Shown here piece after piece: positions 7,249-21,000 of a stretch of DNA of 21,254 nt; position 1 is the stretch's first letter, and each line of letters starts with the position of its first letter. Location of the stretch: the IMG/VR virus record IMGVR_UViG_3300044825_001260, positions 1 to 21,254 of that record, one strand, 5' to 3'. The DNA is from a virus. The position numbers and the translations under genes were made by a program. Below the pieces are notes generated by a model. That model was not told the DNA's origin, did not search any database, and saw only the letters and a program-made list of their open reading frames with translations.

Positions 7249-8766
7249 TTACTCACCTATATGAACCCAACCTGCTTGCATTAGAGCCATATGTTGTTCA
7301 TTAGTTTGAACCATTTGCTCTTCACCTGTCTCTGGATTACGCATGATGTGAGGTTCCGTCAATCTATCCTCACTGATAGCCATAATTTCTTCTTCGTGTT
7401 CTGTTTCATCGGGCTCATTTATGATTTCTAATTCTGTAGGCAATGTGGGATCATCTAACATTTCACGCAGACGGAAATCAATTACTGCTAAAGCCTCTGG
7501 GCTGGTTGCAGCACTCTTTGCCTGTGCTAATTGCTGGAATTCACGCTGATCATCACGGATTGAGAAACTGTTTGGATATTCAATCTCACCATCCCATGTG
7601 CGTTGTTGATAGACCCCAAACAATTCCCATATTTGTTCTTCTGCTAATGCTAAGTTAGATGCTTTCTCACTTAGTTTGGCATTTAGCAATTGAAATTCAA
7701 CCTCTTGTGCAACACCTGAACTTGTCTTTGCGGCTGTTACTCTCACTCCACCTGTATTTGCCATACGATCAATAGATTCAATTAACTTATCCATAGAACT
7801 ATGAATACTAGTTATTGCAGCATTGGAAAATTCTAATGCATAGGGGTTCTGACCGGGGTCTGCGCCTTCTTGGAGCATAATCATGGCACCAGCACCGCTA
7901 CCTACCTGTGCTGTGCTTGGAACTACTAATGTGGGATGTGTGCCTAATCTGATTGCTTGATCCTGTTCCGAAGTTAGGTTGTAGATCATCTTTTGCACAT
8001 CGGCGACATCATTAATATCACTAACGCCGATACCTTTAACAACACTTCTGCGGTTATAAACTAAAACAGCAGGAATCATACCTAATTGATTTGGTTCTTC
8101 TAACTTGAGATAGGCCTCTTGTTTTTCTTCATACATTTCCCAGGTTAGGATACGGTCAGGGAACCATTCTTTAATAACGGTTAATTTATCTACAATCTCT
8201 TCAATATATTTGAGATACACTAATTTATAGCGACCATTAGCCTCACGCTCCCACTTCCAATCGCTAACAACGAGTGGGGTTATAAGATTAACATATGGGC
8301 GCACACCTGCTGCCAATTCTTGTGCCATAGTTTGTGCACCAATGTTGGGCTTTGTCATAATAACCCAGCAATGGCCGAAAACAGAACTCCATATAGAAAC
8401 ATCCTTCATGAATGCATCAAAACTGCGACCTTCTAAATCACAATCCATTAAGAAATCCTCAACATCCTGTTGTCCAGTCCAAGAATAGAATTCACGCTCT
8501 GGTCCTTCACGGAATAAGAAACTCATATAGGTTGAGATAACTGAGGCGCAGTGATTATCAAGTGGAGTTGTCATTAGGCGTTTTTGATATTCGCCATCGC
8601 TTTCAAGTTGATAGCGATTTAGGTGTCCGGCATCAGTGTAATCTTTGCCGCCGACATATGATTGATAAAGAAATAGCCAACGGTCACGATTGCGGCTATA
8701 TTCATTGTGTTTGAGATTTAGTTTTCTAAAATCTTCTAATATTGTGGTATTTGCTATAGCACTCAT
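7249..8766 (-). CDS. portal protein
   Basis: This 505-aa protein would form the dodecameric ring at the packaging vertex. It lies 10 bases after the large terminase gene and before the scaffold and capsid genes, the standard position. Features include an N-terminal helical region (WLFLYQSYVGGKDYTDAGHL), a central NDVADVQKMIYNLTSEQDQA segment corresponding to a portal stem/wing region, and a Glu-rich C-terminus (EPDETEHEEEIMAISEDRL) typical of the crown. Length fits SPP1 gp6-like and related portals (about 450-550 aa). The ribosome binding site is AAGGAACCCATAATG. Confidence rests on size, position and motif pattern together. Confidence 0.88.
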   Translation of the reverse strand: MSAIANTTILEDFRKLNLKHNEYSRNRDRWLFLYQSYVGGKDYTDAGHLNRYQLESDGEYQKRLMTTPLDNHCASVISTYMSFLFREGPEREFYSWTGQQDVEDFLMDCDLEGRSFDAFMKDVSIWSSVFGHCWVIMTKPNIGAQTMAQELAAGVRPYVNLITPLVVSDWKWEREANGRYKLVYLKYIEEIVDKLTVIKEWFPDRILTWEMYEEKQEAYLKLEEPNQLGMIPAVLVYNRRSVVKGIGVSDINDVADVQKMIYNLTSEQDQAIRLGTHPTLVVPSTAQVGSGAGAMIMLQEGADPGQNPYALEFSNAAITSIHSSMDKLIESIDRMANTGGVRVTAAKTSSGVAQEVEFQLLNAKLSEKASNLALAEEQIWELFGVYQQRTWDGEIEYPNSFSIRDDQREFQQLAQAKSAATSPEALAVIDFRLREMLDDPTLPTELEIINEPDETEHEEEIMAISEDRLTEPHIMRNPETGEEQMVQTNEQHMALMQAGWVHIGE

Positions 8767-8776
8767 TATGGGTTCC

Positions 8777-10012
8777 TTAATTTCTTGCTAATTTATGGCC
8801 CCACATTTGAACTGCGGGTCGTTGTATTGGTTGTGTTATTGGGAATAAGTATTCAACTGCATAACGTATGCAATCACCTAAGTGGTCGAAGCCGGAATCT
8901 TTATCAGGAATACTGGTCCCTTCCTTATAGCAGAATTTTTCCATTGTTTCAATTGTATATTTACACTTAGGATCAATAAACAATGTAGTAATGCCAAGAG
9001 AATTGCGAAGTTTAGCATTTACTGCGTTTATGCCATCTCTAACGCTGGCAGTTACTGACCTCGCCCTAACTTGGAATCCTGCTGCTCTAAGTATTGTATG
9101 ATCTGTTCTGCCGCCTGCTGAAGTTTTACGTTGGCCACCAGCAGGGTCTGGATAAGCCGTAATAAACTTTTCAGGGTAGCGATTCTTAATTTCTGTGACA
9201 AGTTCATCGGTGTTACTTCCAAATATTCTAATTTCGTCTACAATGTGCAATGCATTGCCTACCTTAACAAAAACCACAGCGGTGATTGGATCCACGTTAA
9301 AGTCAATGCCAATATGTAATTCGGGTGGCAATGGTTGTGTATAAGCTCTTACATTTTGTGCACGGTCAAAAGCATAGAATATTCTGCCAGAAAAAGTCTC
9401 CCACGAGGCTTCATATTCTTGCCTAAAAATTCTTTCATCTAAGGTTCTGCGTGCTGCCTCAATTTCTTCAGGCTTAACATTACCGCCTTGCAATGTGGTA
9501 TACTGAAAACTAGCCCACTCTTCAGGATATTCTTCATTCATTGTGTAAAGATCATGTGCCCAGTTCATGCCCTTTGGTGTGCCTATGAAAAGTGCTGATC
9601 CTAACTTATCACTTAGTGTAGGTCTTAGTGTTTCATACCATGCATCGGGGTGAATGTCAGCAAATTCATCTAACACTAAAAAATCTAATCCAATACCTCT
9701 AAGTGAATCATAATTGTCCGCGCCTTTGAGACTGATAACTGATCCGTTTTTGAGGTCAATGCTTAATTCTGTTTCATTGATCTTTTTGGCCCAACGCAAT
9801 TCTAATAATTTGTTGCGTAGTTTCTTCCAAGTGATCATTTTGGCCTGGCGGTATGAAGGCGCGACATACCAAACATTGCGTTCAGGTAAGCGTGCTCTAT
9901 AACATAGTTCTCTAATTGAGAGATGTGTCTTGCCAAAACGTCTGCCGGCTATAACAACCTTAAATCTTTGTGGGGCAGCGACAATGGTTTGTTGAGGCAG
10001 ACTTAAGGGCAT
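8777..10012 (-). CDS. terL: terminase large subunit
   Basis: This 411-aa protein is the ATPase-nuclease motor that packages DNA through the portal. The Walker A motif GRRFGKT is at residues 23-29, the Walker B motif LVLDE at 112-116 and the coupling motif GTPKG at 144-148. The RNase H-like nuclease starts at HIGIDFNVDP (catalytic Asp near 237), with a late acidic motif SGFDHLGDCIRYAVEY near the C-terminus. The length is normal for Terminase_3/6-type enzymes. The ATG shares its A with the terS stop (TAATG), so translation is coupled. All expected catalytic motifs are present, so it should be active. Confidence 0.96.
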   Translation of the reverse strand: MPLSLPQQTIVAAPQRFKVVIAGRRFGKTHLSIRELCYRARLPERNVWYVAPSYRQAKMITWKKLRNKLLELRWAKKINETELSIDLKNGSVISLKGADNYDSLRGIGLDFLVLDEFADIHPDAWYETLRPTLSDKLGSALFIGTPKGMNWAHDLYTMNEEYPEEWASFQYTTLQGGNVKPEEIEAARRTLDERIFRQEYEASWETFSGRIFYAFDRAQNVRAYTQPLPPELHIGIDFNVDPITAVVFVKVGNALHIVDEIRIFGSNTDELVTEIKNRYPEKFITAYPDPAGGQRKTSAGGRTDHTILRAAGFQVRARSVTASVRDGINAVNAKLRNSLGITTLFIDPKCKYTIETMEKFCYKEGTSIPDKDSGFDHLGDCIRYAVEYLFPITQPIQRPAVQMWGHKLARN

Positions 10013-10416
10013 TATTCGTCATCACTCCAAGGCAAAGGACTGTTGGCTTCTGAGTTAACTGGGTTGTCACTCATGCCTAGTATATTCTTTGCGAGGAAAA
10101 TCTGGAGTGCCGCATTGTTATTATTAATAGCATTATGCAGCATGGCGCGGCGTAGACTTTGTTTTAATTGTTCTCGCCCTTTTGCCATTATAGTAGCAAA
10201 ATTATAGGCTAAAGTATTTTCGTCTATGTCAAACCAAGTGGCTATTTCTTTATTGGTGCAGCCCATTGCAGCCAGTTTGAAAACATCTTGGTCAAAAACA
10301 ACCTTGCGTCTCACACCTCGGCCAACTTCATAACCAGTTACTTCAACTGTAACAAGGTCTTTGGGTTTTGGTCCAGTTTTCTTTCGGGAGGTGGGAATAT
10401 CATCTGATTCACTCAT
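10012..10416 (-). CDS. terS: terminase small subunit
   Basis: This 134-aa protein would recognise packaging-initiation DNA and regulate TerL. It has a charged N-terminus (SRKKTGPKPKDLVTVEV), a helix-turn-helix KLAAMGCTNKEIATWFDIDE at about residues 47-66, and a C-terminal helical oligomerisation region (LKQSLRRAMLHNAINNNNAA). The gene directly precedes terL. I see no ribosome binding site before the ATG. Instead TATAAATA ends five bases upstream, so if it acts as a promoter the mRNA would be nearly leaderless. A later start is conceivable but would remove the conserved basic N-terminus. Confidence 0.87.
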   Translation of the reverse strand: MSESDDIPTSRKKTGPKPKDLVTVEVTGYEVGRGVRRKVVFDQDVFKLAAMGCTNKEIATWFDIDENTLAYNFATIMAKGREQLKQSLRRAMLHNAINNNNAALQIFLAKNILGMSDNPVNSEANSPLPWSDDE

Positions 10417-10421
10417 AAAGT

Positions 10422-10429
10422 TATTTATA
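10422..10429 (-). promoter_or_regulatory. T4-late-like promoter TATAAATA before terS
   Basis: Exact TATAAATA is followed by ACTTT and the terS ATG. Placed as a -10 element, transcription would start at or within a few bases of the ATG. Confidence 0.45.
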
Positions 10430-10468
10430 GGGATGGTAAAATAATTGTTAGGTAATTGGATTTTTCTG

Positions 10469-10612
10469 TGCTATAATAGTATTACACCAATAATAATTGA
10501 CTAATGTGTAGGATTCGATGAGACTTGCTCGGGATGGACGGCGAGGCTGCGCAAAGGTTTTAGAGTATTCAGTCAAAAAAACCCGCCGGATTAGGGCGGG
10601 CTGGATTTATTT
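10469..10612 (+). ncRNA. candidate plus-strand structured RNA or packaging-site region
   Basis: No gene fits between terS and the helicase. On the plus strand an extended -10 (TGCTATAAT, 10469-10477) precedes a segment closed by TTGACT-AATGT (10497-10507) pairing with GTATT-c-AGTCAA (10565-10576, one bulged C). Inside is a GC-rich stretch at about 10516-10556, unusual for this AT-rich spacer. The hairpin CCCGCC/GGCGGG follows, then TTTATTTG. No good -35 box is seen. It may be a small RNA. Alternatively, lying beside terS, it may be a cos/pac recognition region. The evidence is moderate to weak. Confidence 0.3.
10575..10600 (-). terminator. intrinsic terminator of helicase operon
   Basis: The minus strand reads CCCGCC, a 7-base loop, GGCGGG and seven T. 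It lies a few bases after the helicase stop. Confidence 0.88.
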
Positions 10613-13600
10613 GTTATAATATTCTTCGCGACCTTTTTCTGTTTTTTCGATCCAATCTTTATATCTGGGGTCAGATTCGTCAATATTATAATTCCAAGGT
10701 TTTTTTCCTCTTCTTAAAAATGCTGCACTACAGTAAGCCTTCATTTTAATTTCTTTAGCAAGATCTTGGATCATATTAAATTCCTTGTTAGACAAAGCAC
10801 CATAAAAATCACTTTTAATAAATCTAGTTCTTATAGTATGGCCTGAAACATTATAGATTGATATTCCTTGTTCTTCTAACATAGGAATAATCATTTCACT
10901 CCATTCTATTAAATTATTGGCATCTTTAGCAGTTTTAATTAAGAGGTCATACACAACTCGATGTCTTTTCTTCCAAAATGATTTTTTTGCATACCATTTT
11001 TTTGTTATAGAACTTGTAATAGGCCAAATTTGATGAGGAGGATATCCAAACATTTCGACTAATTGTGATGTTATTGAATTATAATTGTTATCAGGAGCAA
11101 ATTGTTTTGAAACTTGTTCTTCAGCAACTACTGCCATAATTTCAAAAATATCATCTCTATGTTTTTTAAGTTTTTCTTTAAACAATTTAAATTCAATAAG
11201 ATTCTGTGTAATTTGATCTTTAGTTTCCTGAGAAAAACTATTAGTTCCTTTCAACACATAATCGCCGGCCCAAAATTTTTCTCTAAACATTCTAGGGTTA
11301 GTCTTATACAAGGTATAATACTCAAATAGGGGTTTAAATTTTTCAATTTGCAAAAACTCTTGATTTATTGGCGGTGTGGTTTTAGGCGTTATATCGGGCA
11401 ACGACAGATATTTTTCCAACAGCCAAGTGTGCGCTTCAACAACAATATTATCAATCAATTGACCTTTGCTTTTGTGCGAAATCCATGTAATCAATTTAGA
11501 AAAATAGATAGGGTCGAATTCTTCGGGGATCCAAATTCTATTATTCGGACCACGAATTTGTTTGGTTCGACTTCCATTAGGATTTTGAACAAGACTTTGG
11601 AACTCGTCAAAAATGTTTTTATTGCATTGAAGAATTCCAAGCAGTTGTTCTAGCCTATCCTCGCTGAATGAGGGTTTGTCATCAACATCGTTGAATCTCA
11701 TAGGAAGAATATAATATGCGTTGGGGTCTCCGCATACAGGTTTCTTAGTTTTGGGATCAATATCCAGTCGAGTAACTCGCCAAATTTCTTGAGTGGCATT
11801 TACAATAGTTTTGTAATCAAAGTGAATGGCCGCATGATGTTTTGGGCTATACTTATCATCATACCCTCGACCAAATACCTTGCAACTACCAATGGCATAT
11901 CGATCGTGCGTTTTTGCTCGTTTAATAGCAAGGGTATGATTCTTAATTGATGCCGAATTATAATCATCATCATTAAGCACTTGCCAAAAAAGTTTCTTGA
12001 CACTTTTTTCAATGTTTGTATTGCCAAGAACCTTTTTACAAATCCAAGGCCAATTCATTTCTGCCAATTTATTGGTTTTAACCTGATGACTAAATGTAAG
12101 CAGTCTCTTAACTTCGGGGTATTCAACCAAAGTTTTTGCCAATGCTACAAGATCTGCAATCAGACCGGCATGCGGATAGGTATTATCAACAGGAACACCT
12201 TGCACACGCATATTCCAATCTACACGACCTTTAGCATCCACAAATTCCGGGAACATTTGTGCCACTTCGCTTTCCTTAACGCAGGGCATGATTAGAATCA
12301 AAGGTTTTACCAATCCGGCGTTCTCGGCCTGAGCCCAAGTAAAATTATGAGCACAAACACCGTGAATATTGATATTATTCAGACCGTAATCAACAATAGG
12401 ATCTTTGCCCAACCGTTCGGTTCCGGAACTTCCAAAGGTGATAACACTTTCCGTTCTATCATCCAGAGCAGGAGCAAAAGAAGAATGTGCATTGCTGCAA
12501 GGCCAATCGCATTCGTCTCGCTTACGATACCAAAACTTGAATCCTGGATAGTATCGATCCAATTGCCTTTTAATCTGTTCAATTTGAGTGGCATGGTGAT
12601 ACAATGTCAACAGTAGGACACTTTTATCTCCATCCAATGCTTGTTTAATTCTGACCACTGCTTCGGAAACTGAAGTGGTTTTAAAGAAAGGGCTGGAGAG
12701 ATTATTATCGTTTTCGCCATCAATTACCGAGGTGCCACTTACCACAATAACTTCATCATAGAGACCTTTGGCTCTACGACGCATAACTTCTTCCCAACCA
12801 TTTTTGGGCAGAGTTTTGCTGCTGTGATAAAAACTTACGCTAACAGGGCGCGGAGTTTTAGTATAGACTGGATTAAACAAATATTCTAGTTCAGCCAGAA
12901 TAATTGGATCCAAAACACTTTTACCTAGAGCACCTGCTCCAAGTTGATGCCATTTTGGTTGGCCGTGAATTTGAAATGCTTTTTTACCAAACGTGGTGCC
13001 GGCATTGACGTAACCATCCTGTTCGGGACCTCGAGAAACAAATCCAAAAATCTTAGTAGTTGGTTTATCTTTTCTCTTAGCGCGAATGTTATTCCAAAAT
13101 GTTTTGTCGCGAGCAATTTCTTCGACATTATTTTCGTCGGCAACAAATTTGTCATAACCAAAAGTTAGAGGGGTTTGATCTTTCCAAAGGCGAGCATAGT
13201 GAGAAAGATCCTGCGCGGTAGTGTTAATGACAAAATTTCGGATATTCTTTAGAGGGTTATTGCGCAGGCTCATCATCTTAGCAGCCTTATCTGTGCCCAA
13301 CTTTTTATCCATGTGTAGAGTGCTCTTATCCTGATGGATATCAATTTTACCATCAATTCGAGTCACACAAATTTTGTCAATGCCAAAAGAGTTGGCACCT
13401 TTTTGCAAAAGTTCCCAACCATCAATTTTGTCAATAATATGCGAAGGAATAGAATGAACATTGTTGGCATTATAAACCGCAACATAGTCATTATATTCCA
13501 AATGCCATTCTCTAGTAAATTCTTCAAAAAGGTCGCCGGCTTCGCGAGTTTTATTACCATCGTTCGCGGCCAGAAGTTGAGCAATATAATCAAAAAATGA

Positions 13601-13633
13601 TTTTGTGGTCTTAAATGATTGAAGTGTCTTCAT
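10607..13633 (-). CDS. restriction-endonuclease-fold/SF2 helicase fusion
   Basis: This is a protein of about 1008 aa. Residues 30-105 resemble the Mrr-like nuclease of type ISP/type III-related enzymes: GDLFEE at 33-38, GIDK at 84-87 and QDK (QxK) at 101-103, a PD-(D/E)xK pattern. A divergent SF2 helicase follows: Walker A GAGALGKS (232-239), DECD box (373-376), SSGTER in place of SAT/TATPR (402-407), LLTFSH motif IV (511-516), FGRGYDD motif V (587-593) and QEIWRVTR motif VI (615-622, Gly replaced by Trp but both Arg kept). About 360 residues of unrecognised C-terminus follow. There is no methylase domain. I chose the ATG at 13633 because GGAG lies six bases before it and it follows the upstream stop by one base. 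The frame is open to 13654. It could serve replication, recombination, host DNA degradation or phage competition. Confidence 0.78.
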   Translation of the reverse strand: MKTLQSFKTTKSFFDYIAQLLAANDGNKTREAGDLFEEFTREWHLEYNDYVAVYNANNVHSIPSHIIDKIDGWELLQKGANSFGIDKICVTRIDGKIDIHQDKSTLHMDKKLGTDKAAKMMSLRNNPLKNIRNFVINTTAQDLSHYARLWKDQTPLTFGYDKFVADENNVEEIARDKTFWNNIRAKRKDKPTTKIFGFVSRGPEQDGYVNAGTTFGKKAFQIHGQPKWHQLGAGALGKSVLDPIILAELEYLFNPVYTKTPRPVSVSFYHSSKTLPKNGWEEVMRRRAKGLYDEVIVVSGTSVIDGENDNNLSSPFFKTTSVSEAVVRIKQALDGDKSVLLLTLYHHATQIEQIKRQLDRYYPGFKFWYRKRDECDWPCSNAHSSFAPALDDRTESVITFGSSGTERLGKDPIVDYGLNNINIHGVCAHNFTWAQAENAGLVKPLILIMPCVKESEVAQMFPEFVDAKGRVDWNMRVQGVPVDNTYPHAGLIADLVALAKTLVEYPEVKRLLTFSHQVKTNKLAEMNWPWICKKVLGNTNIEKSVKKLFWQVLNDDDYNSASIKNHTLAIKRAKTHDRYAIGSCKVFGRGYDDKYSPKHHAAIHFDYKTIVNATQEIWRVTRLDIDPKTKKPVCGDPNAYYILPMRFNDVDDKPSFSEDRLEQLLGILQCNKNIFDEFQSLVQNPNGSRTKQIRGPNNRIWIPEEFDPIYFSKLITWISHKSKGQLIDNIVVEAHTWLLEKYLSLPDITPKTTPPINQEFLQIEKFKPLFEYYTLYKTNPRMFREKFWAGDYVLKGTNSFSQETKDQITQNLIEFKLFKEKLKKHRDDIFEIMAVVAEEQVSKQFAPDNNYNSITSQLVEMFGYPPHQIWPITSSITKKWYAKKSFWKKRHRVVYDLLIKTAKDANNLIEWSEMIIPMLEEQGISIYNVSGHTIRTRFIKSDFYGALSNKEFNMIQDLAKEIKMKAYCSAAFLRRGKKPWNYNIDESDPRYKDWIEKTEKGREEYYNK

Positions 13634-13634
13634 T

Positions 13635-13886
13635 TTATTCTCCATCTTCCTCATCCATTAGATCTCTGGCGATTTCACACCAATCAAAAACTTCATTGAC
13701 CAAATTTTTTTCACTCCAACCTCTCATATGCAATTGCACAATACAATTGGTCATCAGACTCAAAATTAATGATTCTTTTCTCTCATCATTTTCATCCAAT
13801 TCAGGATATTCTTTCAAAATCTTAAAAAAGATTTCATTACCTTCTTCGATTCCAACTTCGATCAAATTATCAATTTTTTTGTCCAT
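13635..13886 (-). CDS. acidic 83-aa protein, helicase partner candidate
   Basis: The protein begins MDKKIDNLIEVGIEEGNEIF and ends DLMDEEDGE, and is strongly acidic and helical. The middle contains CIVQLHMRGWSEKNLVNEVF, which looks like a conserved helical motif, though I cannot assign a family. It is the first gene behind an extended -10 promoter and is translationally coupled to the nuclease-helicase, one base separating stop and next start. The ribosome binding site is GAGG six bases before ATG. An inhibitor, loader or DNA mimic for the helicase is possible from charge and linkage only. Confidence 0.8.
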   Translation of the reverse strand: MDKKIDNLIEVGIEEGNEIFFKILKEYPELDENDERKESLILSLMTNCIVQLHMRGWSEKNLVNEVFDWCEIARDLMDEEDGE

Positions 13887-13914
13887 GTGAACCTCTGTGT
13901 GTTAAAGTGTTATT

Positions 13915-13943
13915 ATTATAGCATAGGTCATGCTACATGTCTG
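13915..13943 (-). promoter_or_regulatory. sigma70-type promoter, helicase operon
   Basis: CAGACA (-35, 13938-13943), a 17-base spacer and TATAAT (13915-13920) with an extended TGC. It lies about 30 bases before the first ATG and after the LuxR-gene terminator. Confidence 0.75.
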
Positions 13944-13965
13944 TGGCAAAAAAACAACACTTAGC

Positions 13966-13998
13966 CAAAAAAAAGCAGTCCGGTCATGACTGCTTTTT
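13966..13998 (-). terminator. intrinsic terminator after LuxR-type gene
   Basis: AGCAGTC/GACTGCT stem with 7-base loop, followed by eight T on the minus strand and flanked by A/T on both sides, so it may work in both directions. A nested hairpin (AGAACC/GGTTCT, 14000-14029, with CTTTC/GAAAG inside) precedes it and overlaps the LuxR stop codon. Confidence 0.85.
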
Positions 13999-14027
13999 CA
14001 GAACCTATACTTTCGTCTAGAAAGGTT

Positions 14028-14219
14028 CTATTTCTTGACAAATACCACAAGTTGGGTTCTATTACGCAAACCATATTTGCGGAGAATATTTCCCATATGC
14101 AGTTTGATTGTGCTTTCACTTACATTCAACAATCTTGCCAAATGTTTGTTTGAGCACACTCTTGTCAAAAAGAGATCAAGAACTTCTTGTTCCCTTGGCG
14201 TTAGTCTAACATTATCCAT
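14028..14219 (-). CDS. single-domain LuxR-type HTH regulator
   Basis: This 63-aa protein is almost exactly one LuxR/GerE DNA-binding domain: LTPREQEVLDLFLTRVCSNK, ARLLNVSESTIKLHMGNILRKYGLRNRTQL. The conserved Glu (REQEVL), the recognition helix around SESTIKLHMGNIL and the fourth helix are present. There is no receiver or ligand-binding domain, so it resembles GerE-like stand-alone regulators. It would bind DNA as a dimer. It has its own sigma70-like promoter and terminator. The site AAAGGA lies in a small hairpin (GGTTC/GAACC, 14224-14240), which may limit translation. Targets are unknown. Confidence 0.93.
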   Translation of the reverse strand: MDNVRLTPREQEVLDLFLTRVCSNKHLARLLNVSESTIKLHMGNILRKYGLRNRTQLVVFVKK

Positions 14220-14223
14220 TTTT

Positions 14224-14240
14224 GGTTCCTTTCAAGAACC
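14224..14240 (-). promoter_or_regulatory. leader hairpin holding the LuxR ribosome binding site
   Basis: GGTTC-TTGAAAG-GAACC places AAAGGA partly in the loop and partly in the 3' arm, a few bases before ATG. The stem has only five pairs, so any control would be mild, temperature-dependent or protein-assisted. Confidence 0.4.
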
Positions 14241-14269
14241 GGAAGGATTTATTTTAAACAACATATATA

Positions 14270-14298
14270 AGTATATCTTATTGTTAAAAATTTAGCAA
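14270..14298 (-). promoter_or_regulatory. sigma70-type promoter of LuxR-type gene
   Basis: TTGCTA (14293-14298), 17-base spacer, TATACT (14270-14275), located between an upstream terminator and the gene. Confidence 0.7.
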
Positions 14299-14311
14299 GA
14301 AATATTTTAAT

Positions 14312-14945: not shown

Positions 14946-15145
14946 TATAGCAATTCCATGAACTCAATATGCTTGATGGCCAAACCACCACACACACCTT
15001 GAGCACGAAGCTGTTCATAATGTTCGCGAGCCATGTCGCGGTCATTATATTCAAAGCGGGCGGTCTTTTGTTCCTGTAGGCGAAGATCAATTTGAAACTT
15101 TCGAGGTTTTTGGGGATCTCGAAGTATGGCTGCTGTCTTTTTCAT
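14945..15145 (-). CDS. hypothetical 66-aa protein
   Basis: A basic, mixed alpha/beta small protein: MKKTAAILRDPQKPRKFQID, then LRLQEQKTARFEYNDRDMAR and an end AIKHIEFMELL. The two strands around KFQIDLRL and TARFEYND with a following helix (REHYEQLRAQG) suggest a compact fold, with no known family. Stop and start codons overlap with both neighbours (ATGA upstream, TAATG downstream), showing co-translation. Confidence 0.68.
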   Translation of the reverse strand: MKKTAAILRDPQKPRKFQIDLRLQEQKTARFEYNDRDMAREHYEQLRAQGVCGGLAIKHIEFMELL

Positions 15146-15459
15146 ATTTCCTCTTTATTGTAATGGTCAAGGGCATAGCCCATCTTTCTTGCCACCTTGG
15201 CACGGAGATGTTCTTGGCGTGTGATTACACGACAGTTATCTGCTTGCCATGGATGCTTGGTGTCCAATCTGAAAAGCACAAGATTATCTGGTTGGCGTCC
15301 TCTTTGGTTCCATATGGTCTCTGTGGGCCAGAACGCACAAAAATCTTCAAATGTGAGATTCCAAGCCTCATTACGAAAACGTGCTTGGCTGCGTGCTCGA
15401 ACCCAAGTTAATCTTCTATCGCGTGTGAATTTATCGGGATACATTTTTTGTCTTGACAT
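15142..15459 (-). CDS. HNH-endonuclease-related small protein
   Basis: This 105-aa protein contains TWVRARSQARFRNEAWNLTF, EDFCAFWP and PDNLVLFRLDTKHPWQADNCRVITRQEH. The L-x-R-x-D...W..dNcrvit..eH segment matches the C-terminal half of phage HNH/His-Me-finger proteins. The first catalytic His is not evident, so activity is doubtful. The frame is open up to 15531, but most of that lies inside the preceding gene. I chose ATG 15459, which follows AAGAAAG and leaves a 29-base overlap. It may be a degenerate homing-type endonuclease or a DNA-binding derivative. Confidence 0.6.
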   Translation of the reverse strand: MSRQKMYPDKFTRDRRLTWVRARSQARFRNEAWNLTFEDFCAFWPTETIWNQRGRQPDNLVLFRLDTKHPWQADNCRVITRQEHLRAKVARKMGYALDHYNKEEI

Positions 15460-15904
15460 ATCTATCTTTCTTATTAAGTGGTTCGTAGTTGAGGACCTGT
15501 GCTGTGGGATAACCACTGCAATATCTTCCATAGATAAACCATCTATTTAGACCTCTTAGTTCAGCCCATTCTTTAATTGTTAATGTTTTGCGTCGGTAAG
15601 TGATCTTTATGGTTCTATCTTTGCGTTTGCTGACCTTCATACATTCACTCCACATTAAATTGCCGGGTTCATAGTCCTTGGTCATGTCTTTGCGTGTGAG
15701 TTGACTGTGAAATCCATTAGGTGGAGGACCTAAATGTCGCATAATATAGTTATGGAAATCACGAGCCGAGTCCCAAAATAAACGGATTCCTGCACCACCT
15801 ACATTTGGATAATCTGGGCAACGCTTATTGTAGACCATTTGTCTTATGGCGGTATATCTGCGAAATACTGGTGATTGGCGAACTGCTCTTAAATCATCTT
15901 TCAT
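15431..15904 (-). CDS. HNH/AP2-like DNA-binding protein
   Basis: This 157-aa protein follows a pattern widespread in phage HNH proteins: FRRYTAIRQMVYNKRCPDYP, then GGAGIRLFWDSARDFHNYIM, a G-PP-G turn, LTRKDMTKDYEPGNLMWSE, and a C-terminal LTIKEWAELRGLNRWFIYGR helix-turn-helix-like segment. The usual D-R-I-D-N block is altered (TRKDMTKD), so cleavage activity is uncertain while DNA binding remains plausible. Together with the next gene it may be a diverged duplicate pair. It follows the 127-aa gene by 11 bases. Confidence 0.62.
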   Translation of the reverse strand: MKDDLRAVRQSPVFRRYTAIRQMVYNKRCPDYPNVGGAGIRLFWDSARDFHNYIMRHLGPPPNGFHSQLTRKDMTKDYEPGNLMWSECMKVSKRKDRTIKITYRRKTLTIKEWAELRGLNRWFIYGRYCSGYPTAQVLNYEPLNKKDRYVKTKNVSR

Positions 15905-18039: not shown

Positions 18040-21000
18040 TTAACGAGCAAGTCTTGCGCCAATACTTGCATAACTGAATGAACCATCAGCACTAATTGCA
18101 TCGGTTGCAAATATTCCACTTGGAGCCACTGTGTAAGTTCCTCCAACACATGGGCAACGATCCGCGGTAGTATCAACATATGGTTGGTCAGCAAAATATG
18201 TGGCGCTGCTTCCGCTTGAACTAATTGTGCCAGGAATTATAAATCCATTTGATGTGGCGGTGCTGTTTGTGACCATACCAGTCATCCAATCTCCACCAGT
18301 AGCACCCGAAGTGGTCAATAAAAGCATTCCTGTTTTGGCAGTATCACTGAAATTAGCACTGTTATTGGTAAAATACCATTCTGCACTATTAGCACTTACT
18401 GATCCGTCAGGATTTACTATCACTCCATCAACAAATGTCCAGACGTTACCATATAGGTTTTCAATACCACGGTAAGTCATAAATGGAGGGCTGTTTGAAG
18501 CACTACCTGATGTTGTATCTGTGGATCCATTACCAAATCCATTGCTTTCACCCGCATAACTGTTTCCATAACTGCCTGCGGTAGCAGTATTACCTTCACC
18601 AGTAGCCGCTTGGCTGTTTAGAGTTTGATATTCAACTATGAATAGGATTTGGATCGCTGCCCACAATGCCCAATCAAGTTGACGCCATCCAGCACCACGG
18701 TTAGATGCAAGTGTTCTATATGCACCACGAACTAGACCAGGCATGCAACGAACACCACTTACGCTGGCCAGTTTGTCGCCTGTGCCTGCTGTGAGATCAA
18801 CAAGACTGCTATTATCATTTCCACCATAACCATCAATGTAGGTTGAAGCACTGACATCATAAACGCAGGCATCATATGCGCTGATATAACGGTAATCAAC
18901 TTCCACACCATCTTTCATGAAGGCTGGATGCAATGTGTAACCAGCTATTGGCTTGTTGCTGATACTCCAAGTGTATTCAGTTCCAGTAGATGAGAACTTG
19001 TGATAGAACTTAGGAATCTCAACCATGACCTGTCCATCAGTTCCAGTTGTGATAGCTGTGGTTCCATCTGCTTTCTTAGAGGAATCGGTAGCACTGAGGT
19101 AATAGACTACATCGCCGCTGTTATTCATAACACAACGACGCATACCTCTGTGAGTTTCAGTTACAACACTGGTTCCTCTATTAATACTTGCTCCAGAACT
19201 TGAATTTGCACTATTCCAAGTAAATGATCCAATGCTTACGAAATCTTGTGCGTAAACATAACCATTAACTGTTAGGCCAGCAAAGGTCACTGTGCTTGTG
19301 GTATAAAGAGCTTGGTCATAACTTGCTCCACCACCAGCAGCACCTTGTGCGCCCTGAGCACCTTGAGCACCTTGTGCGCCAGTTCCAGCTTCACCTTGAT
19401 AACCTTGAGCACCTTGAGCTCCCACATCACCTTGTGCGCCTTGTGCACCGGTTGCACCTTGAGGACCTTGTGCACCACCAGTAAATGCTGTGGTCTGTAT
19501 AGTGTTGTCCGGGAATTCTAATCCACCAGTTTCATTAAACTTCCAAATATTAGTTCCAGCAGTTCCGGCATTGTATGAGGTAACACGAGTGAATGTTTCT
19601 TGTGTTAGAACTTGACCTTGGCCACTTTCTATTTTTACACCATAACCACTTGAACTCTTATTTTTAATAACAAGTTCGTGATCGCCTACTGTTCCAATAG
19701 TTCCAATTTGATTGCTGGGTTGAATACGAATAGAACCAATGTCACTTACTAGGGATGTTGAAGTAACATTAATTGCTAAAAATTGTGGACTATTAAATGT
19801 GTTAAGATCCTGGTCATAAGAACCTGCAGCGCCCTGTGCGCCTTGTGCACCGGTTGCACCTTGTGCGCCCTGAGCACCGACATCTCCTTGAGCACCTTGT
19901 GAACCAGTGTCACCTTGAGCACCTTGTGCTCCGGTATCACCCTGAACACCTTGACTGCCTTGAGCTCCAGTTAGGCCCTGTGCACCAACATCACCTTGGA
20001 AACCTTGATGTCCTTGAACACCTTGACTGCCCTGTGCACCAGTTAGGCCTTGTGCGCCAACATCACCTTGGAAGCCTTGATGTCCTTGAACACCTTGAGC
20101 ACCTTGAGCTCCAACATCTCCTTGGGCACCAGTTGAACCTTGTGCGCCTTGGCTACCTTGTGCACCTTGTTGTCCTTCAAGACGAACAATTAAGGCCACA
20201 GGATCATTGTTTGAGAATGAGTGTGTGCTGGTTGTTAAACTAACTGGGAATACAAGATATGTTCCCTGATTTGTTGGAGCACCACTAATACTCCATAATT
20301 GATAATTTGTGCTATCTGACTTATCTTGAATTCTAAAGTCATCACCTGTGTTGTATAGATCCAATAGATATTCAATGTCTTGACTTAAATTATCAATGTG
20401 GCTGATATGTAATTCAGTTGCTGATGTCTGTGTGGCATTGTTCCATAACAAATAATTGCTGCCAGGATCACCAGAGGTGCTGGTTGTCTTGGCCTTATAT
20501 TCAAATATGCTTGAACTTGTGCCGGCTGAACCTTGATTTCCTTGAGCACCTTGTGCACCAGCGTCTCCCTGTGCCCCAGTTGCGCCTTGTGCACCTACTT
20601 CTCCTTGGAAGCCCTGTGCTCCTTGAACGCCTTGGAAGCCCTGTGCACCTTGAACGCCAGTTGCGCCAACGTCACCCTGGAAGCCCTGAGCTCCTTGAAC
20701 ACCTTGGAAGCCCTGTGCACCTTGAACGCCAGTTGCGCCAACGTCACCTTGAAAACCTTGTGCGCCTTGCGCGCCTGCTGCTCCTTGAGGACCGGATCCG
20801 GCTATGTAACTGACTTCCTTAGTAGAAGTATTGTATTGTAGTGTAAAGCCGGTTGGTGAAGTAATATTTCTAACTGGATTAACAAATAGACCTTCAGTTA
20901 AACTGTTTAATGCCACATTGTCAGCATTAAGAATAATGCTCTTAGATGTTGCAGTGGTTTCACCTGCTCTATTACCAATTGCAATGCTATAAGAACCTTG

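Follow-up and report, generated by a model that had tools for sequence, protein, structure and literature searches.

A probable nuclease-helicase fusion gene adjoining the terminase genes in a phage genome fragment

The linear IMG/VR virus record IMGVR_UViG_3300044825_001260, analyzed here over its whole length of 21,254 bases (hereafter the window), carries beside the terminase genes TerS and TerL a 1015-codon open reading frame (ORF; 10607–13654, on the minus strand like every feature of the window located below) for what is probably, on the evidence of its sequence, a nuclease fused to a helicase of superfamily 2 (SF2). The gene is an orphan, carried otherwise by a single near-identical viral contig, and it looks like cargo, with a terminator of its own and a position adjoining TerS in a region that is variable among relatives. 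The most likely function of its product, the large protein, would be that of an ATP-driven, DNA-cleaving cargo effector directed against competing DNA, and the explanation as a whole, including this role for a single-chain enzyme, is one that we hold with moderate confidence. An earlier note on this DNA had proposed a fusion of a PD-(D/E)xK-like nuclease with an SF2 helicase, related to type ISP enzymes and possibly controlled by a small acidic protein encoded just upstream. The order and spacing of the motifs and the ranks in profile comparisons speak moderately for the fusion, but several other tests were not significant, and the acidic protein turned out to be a neighbor with a history of its own.

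The large gene and its sequence motifs

Both ORFs described in the earlier note, the large one and that for an acidic protein of 83 amino acids (aa; 13635–13886), are real. The larger extends over 1016 codons between stops and is not a product of chance, since 1000 shuffles of positions 10001–14300 gave at most 201 codons. Its likelier start is Met8, an ATG at 13633 that stands 6 nt past a GGAG and one base past the TAA of the 83-aa gene, so that the two genes probably abut and do not overlap.

All the peptides quoted in the earlier note are present in the large protein, namely GIDK at residue 91, QDK at 108, GAGALGKS at 239, DECD at 380, SSGTER at 409 and QEIWR at 622. The putative nuclease domain contains a G..FE element (residues 40–44; 13523–13537) and, further on, a PD-QxK-like core, GID...QDK (residues 91–110; 13325–13384), in which the D-to-Q distance between GID (91–93) and QDK (108–110) is 15, equal to that of our type ISP reference, the enzyme of the Pseudomonas plasmid pGLE121P3 (L084:4994–9901), which matches PF22240, PF02384 and PF18135. 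In the helicase-like part are found a Walker A motif, GAGALGKS (residues 239–246; 12917–12940), a motif II, DECD (residues 380–383; 12506–12517), and a motif VI, QEIWRVTR (residues 622–629; 11768–11791), the last aligned with the Q.iGRv.R of phage helicases. Of the SF2 motifs claimed earlier, I, II and VI therefore stand in the expected order, whereas the assignment of SSGTER to motif III is a guess made from its position only, and divergence is seen in motifs II, III and VI. With a Walker A, a DExH-like motif II and a QxxxRxxR motif VI, the protein probably falls among the ResIII-type SF2 helicases, to which its similarity is remote. An ordered nuclease pattern that includes G..FE arose in 3 of 300,000 shuffles of residues 1–200, and none of 200,000 shuffles of residues 201–700 gave a loose pattern of helicase motifs in order, figures that overstate the strength of the case because both patterns were written after the sequence had been seen. 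The region of motif II (12341–12538) also matched phrog_29085 repeatedly but weakly (E 0.11, 0.043 and 8.9e-5, the last for one record only), a family of unknown function that was matched by none of 13 records that contain genes for type ISP enzymes or related helicases.

The putative motor is followed by a basic C-terminal region (approximately residues 690–1015; 10610–11587) for which Pfam gave no match and PHROG a single weak one (E 0.18). In these 325 residues neither Pfam nor an NPPY-like motif revealed a coupler, a methylase or a specificity domain, and methylase motifs of the [NDS]PP[YFWH] and F.G.G types are missing from the whole of the large protein (isoelectric point, pI, 9.0). Outside the structural genes the window holds, judged by size, no methylase-sized ORF besides the large one. 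The earlier statement that a methylase is lacking is valid for the 21-kb fragment only. The 25 annotated TerL relatives comprise 21 records of about 30–38 kb and 4 of 53–109 kb, and from these sizes a third or more of the genome of the window phage may be missing.

Profile, alignment and structure comparisons

The best database match of the large protein was a helicase of Synechococcus phage ACG-2014f, over residues 324–451 around motif II (24% identity, E 9); compared pairwise, the two proteins gave an E of 4e-6. Profile comparisons were made by hhalign with profile A3, built from 7 phage SF2 helicases, and profile A4, built from 10 type ISP N-terminal halves. A3 scored 38.0 (P 0.0012) over residues 339–638, with motifs II and VI in register, against 32.9 for the best of 100 shuffles, a score somewhat favored because A3 had been chosen on account of the ACG-2014f match. 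A4 scored 30.1 (best of 100 shuffles 28.9), so that the helicase part scores higher with the phage ResIII-type helicases than with type ISP enzymes. The type ISP likeness put forward in the earlier note extends to the first two domains and no further. The first 200 residues compared with the type ISP nuclease domain reached 21.6 (best of 100 shuffles 20.8), in an alignment of residues 35–61 that pairs TREAGDLFEEF with EREKGTYFEEL. By HMMER, the A3 model gave 3.7 bits, against 3.0 for the best reported shuffle.

A null of real proteins was provided by 182 other phage ORFs, each of at least 350 aa. Among 121 non-terminases, itself included, the large protein ranked first with A3, second with the type ISP helicase and first with the nuclease domain. 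Terminases share the P-loop motor fold, and of the 62 in the set 29 outranked the large protein with A3, 5 with the type ISP helicase and 2 with the nuclease domain.

A number of results weigh against the assignment. The HMMER models of the type ISP nuclease (2.8 bits; best shuffle 7.2) and of the type ISP helicase (–1.0; best shuffle 5.2) did not score above shuffles. A MAFFT alignment with type ISP enzymes sets the catalytic residues in register, which was not used as proof, and the 45 of 169 type ISP invariants that the large protein matched are not above chance (mean of shuffles 37.7, maximum 53); two of 38 unrelated ORFs matched 47. Pfam, NCBIfam, PADLOC and the PDB sequences gave no match to the large protein beyond chance, and in the PADLOC library, which dates from 2023, no family was found at E ≤ 10 for either the large or the 83-aa protein. 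Nor was any diverged homolog found that would show the key residues to be under selection. The AlphaFold2 models were unusable, with a mean predicted local distance difference test score (pLDDT) of 36 for the protein alone and 34 with the type ISP alignment. The elements of the latter model, a helix (33–52), two strands (94–100 and 103–110), a helix (118–127), a strand (138–145) and a helix (151–165), follow one another as they might in a PD-(D/E)xK core, which at such confidence is not evidence. A Foldseek search with the low-confidence model, led by isocitrate dehydrogenases and listing XisH proteins in 17th and 26th place, was not used.

Distribution of the large gene

The sole other carrier found in IMG/VR is IMGVR_UViG_3300047557_003778, which is 99.98% identical to the window across 11,974 bases. 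A search with TerL supplied 80 loci (L003–L082) of 180 relatives, and tblastn over 82 loci detected the large protein only in L001–L003, which represent the window and the near-identical contig; it was found in none of the 30 whole records behind 30 TerL-relative loci. The homolog searches can detect only relatives that retain moderate to high identity, and the loci include many fragments. Within this scope, no relative was seen in the plasmid search, in the 25 stretches matched among GTDB contigs or in E. coli genomes searched by DNA. A peptide-pattern search of IMG/VR returned no diverged homolog, and among the 3 and 11 stretches retrieved there with two degenerate DNA motifs only the near-identical contig encodes the large protein. 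The phage database gave hits at E ≤ 10 in 12 of 50,697 records, all weak, and the genomes of three phyla (n = 398, 387 and 398) gave 0, 0 and 1 match, respectively; the single match (L125) was dropped and, in our own reading, looks like a polysaccharide deacetylase. Among titles and abstract openings, with few subscription papers represented, none dealt with a methylase-free type ISP-like phage protein, which is weak evidence of absence.

Two other cases came up in these searches. A match of the type ISP query that started at residue 30 had suggested a separate Mrr-like nuclease gene beside the helicase of cyanophage S-P4; this candidate was rejected, its translation looking like a cysteine-rich protein. 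One half of a type ISP enzyme (39.5% identity over 98%) is encoded in two “Listeria phage” records (L097, OR848216.1) that are unverified, about 11 kb long and possibly bacterial contigs.

Transcription unit, acidic neighbor and TerS flank

The large gene is followed directly on its 3′ side by an intrinsic terminator (10580–10602; fold z –3.4, none of 200 shuffles as stable), and then by TerS (10012–10416; phrog_309, E 1e-5), TerL (8777–10012; phrog_2, E 4e-51) and the portal gene (7249–8766). On the other side, a second intrinsic terminator, spotted by eye and not in the list of the terminator scan, closes an upstream 63-aa helix-turn-helix (HTH) gene (stem at about 13974–13994; hairpin and T run, fold z –3.8, none of 200 shuffles as stable). 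Between it and the 83-aa gene is located an extended –10 promoter-like site, CAGACA-17-TATAAT with TG (13915–13943). The promoter of the earlier note thus exists as a consensus match, but on its own it is only suggestive, because the promoter-like sites of the region are not above shuffles in number (18 seen, 16.3 expected). Taken together with the two flanking terminators, it suggests that the 83-aa gene and the large gene form a single closed transcription unit.

The 83-aa protein is strongly charged (pI 4.25, net charge about –14), and the earlier note had suggested that it might control the large protein and had called for a search for conserved co-occurrence of the two genes. Homologs with 54–63% identity were found in three other contigs (L096, L098 and L099), and in none of the three is the large gene behind them, contrary to what a dedicated two-gene system would require. 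The gene order in L098 is 83-aa gene, TerS, TerL and portal, that is, an empty-site arrangement; in L096 the homolog and TerS are separated by other genes, including those for a ParB_N protein and a TET-associated glycosyltransferase, and in L099 a long gene, read as structural, comes after the homolog. The 83-aa protein is therefore encoded by a phage gene that has a separate history and behind which the large gene was added, and it is a neighbor within what looks like a shared transcription unit, not a dedicated partner. The large gene itself has the marks of a moron, with its terminator and promoter-like site and its absence both from the TerL relatives examined and from the same place in L098.

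The genes around TerS vary across the 48 TerL-bearing loci that have at least 2.5 kb upstream. Ten such genes, hand-picked and not a full survey, were compared with Pfam and gave three AAA ATPases (two below the curated cut-off), two TET-associated glycosyltransferases, one FkbM methyltransferase, one ParB_N protein and one N6/N4 DNA methylase, the remaining two having no match. The TET-associated glycosyltransferase genes beside TerS (L096:6979–8692, next to the ParB_N gene, and L021:3661–4533) may point to DNA base modification. That relatives carry modification genes at the very place of the putative cutter is offered as a hypothesis and not as a result, because in L016 and L021 some of the variable genes sit between TerS and TerL and not before TerS.

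Proposed function and alternative explanations

We propose that the large protein joins an N-terminal Mrr-like (PD-QxK) nuclease and an SF2 (ResIII-type) DNA translocase in one chain, with the basic C-terminal region occupying the place of the type ISP coupler, methylase and specificity domains, and that its gene is moron-like cargo, equipped with its own terminator and lodged between the conserved 83-aa phage gene and TerS. In type ISP enzymes nuclease and translocase act jointly after the methylase and specificity domains have recognized their site (PMC7049714; PMC3874165). By analogy, the large protein may load onto DNA through its C-terminal region, move along double-stranded DNA driven by ATP and then cut. 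Its likely targets would be the DNA of competing phages or of the host, chosen through the C-terminal region or the state of the DNA and not through methylation by the protein itself, and a gene for a protecting modification may lie in the part of the genome beyond this fragment. A more specific picture, in which a methylase-free, type ISP-like nuclease motor selects foreign DNA where some relatives carry DNA-modifying genes, so that one phage lineage would have a cutter at the place of a shield in its relatives, is doubtful. Activity of the large protein would show that, in a phage that needs to spare its own genome, the nuclease-motor half of such an enzyme can stand without the methylase, and how it tells one DNA from another would become directly testable.

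The position of the gene, which directly precedes TerS and TerL, and the cyanophage helicases as nearest matches would also suit a protein that serves the phage's own DNA, as a helicase-nuclease of replication, recombination or packaging whose place beside the terminase would reflect action on the packaging substrate. One would expect relatives to retain a gene of core function, however, and the absence of the gene from the examined relatives, together with the same gene order without it in L098, makes this role unlikely. The insertion-like distribution could likewise be that of a mobile, homing-like nuclease gene that settled next to TerS and cleaves DNA of the TerS region from which it is absent, and nucleases of mobile type do occur nearby, as indicated by an HNH endonuclease gene (15431–15904; phrog_3377); yet the large protein matches no homing-endonuclease family, and a motor-nuclease of 1015 residues is atypical as a homing enzyme, so that we regard this origin as very unlikely.

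Two further alternatives concern the protein itself. The non-significant HMMER and MAFFT tests, the failed structure predictions and the divergent motifs II, III and VI would be explained by a motor whose nuclease and ATPase sites are degenerate and inactive, or by a protein of another kind with chance motifs, which we consider quite unlikely in view of the ordered motif patterns, post hoc as they are, and of the profile ranks among non-terminases. As for a toxin-like pair of genes in which the acidic 83-aa protein keeps the nuclease in check, the shared transcription unit, the abutting genes and the opposite charges (pI 4.25 and 9.0) would fit it, but the three homologs of the small protein without a large gene behind them render it highly improbable.

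Comparison with known systems

The large protein would be an orphan variant of a known nuclease-motor architecture. With the type ISP enzymes (LlaGI, LlaBIII) it shares G..FE, GxD-x14-QxK with equal D-to-Q spacing and an SF2-like motif order; it differs from them in having no coupler, methylase or specificity domain, and the sequence similarity is very low. The cyanophage ResIII-type SF2 helicases (ACG-2014f, phrog_16) are closest by sequence and by profile score, but they are of about 480 aa, and the single one examined lacks a fused nuclease-like domain. Nuclease-helicase systems that choose their targets by means other than methylation do exist, examples being Nhi, Gabija and Hachiman (PMC12904381); the large protein, known here from sequence, unlike them matches no PADLOC model at E ≤ 10. 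Variable cargo at a fixed genome position is a trait shared with the antiviral hotspots of phages and satellites, which concern other phages (PMC9122126); the genes beside TerS are known here from their sequences. If the large protein is active, the regions flanking TerS would be worth searching for conflict genes in this group of phages.

Other genes of the window

Repeat and Rfam searches gave nothing useful. The 63-aa HTH gene upstream of the transcription unit (14028–14219) encodes a stand-alone LuxR-type HTH protein (GerE, E 2.4e-14) and is flanked by two strong intrinsic terminators, and the small genes near it appear each to be a unit of their own. The HNH endonuclease gene overlaps an ORF of unknown function (15142–15531; phrog_16521). 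A 958-aa ORF (18040–20916) that has numerous collagen-like G-x-Q repeats but ends in a non-repetitive C-terminus is, in our own reading, probably a tail fiber gene.

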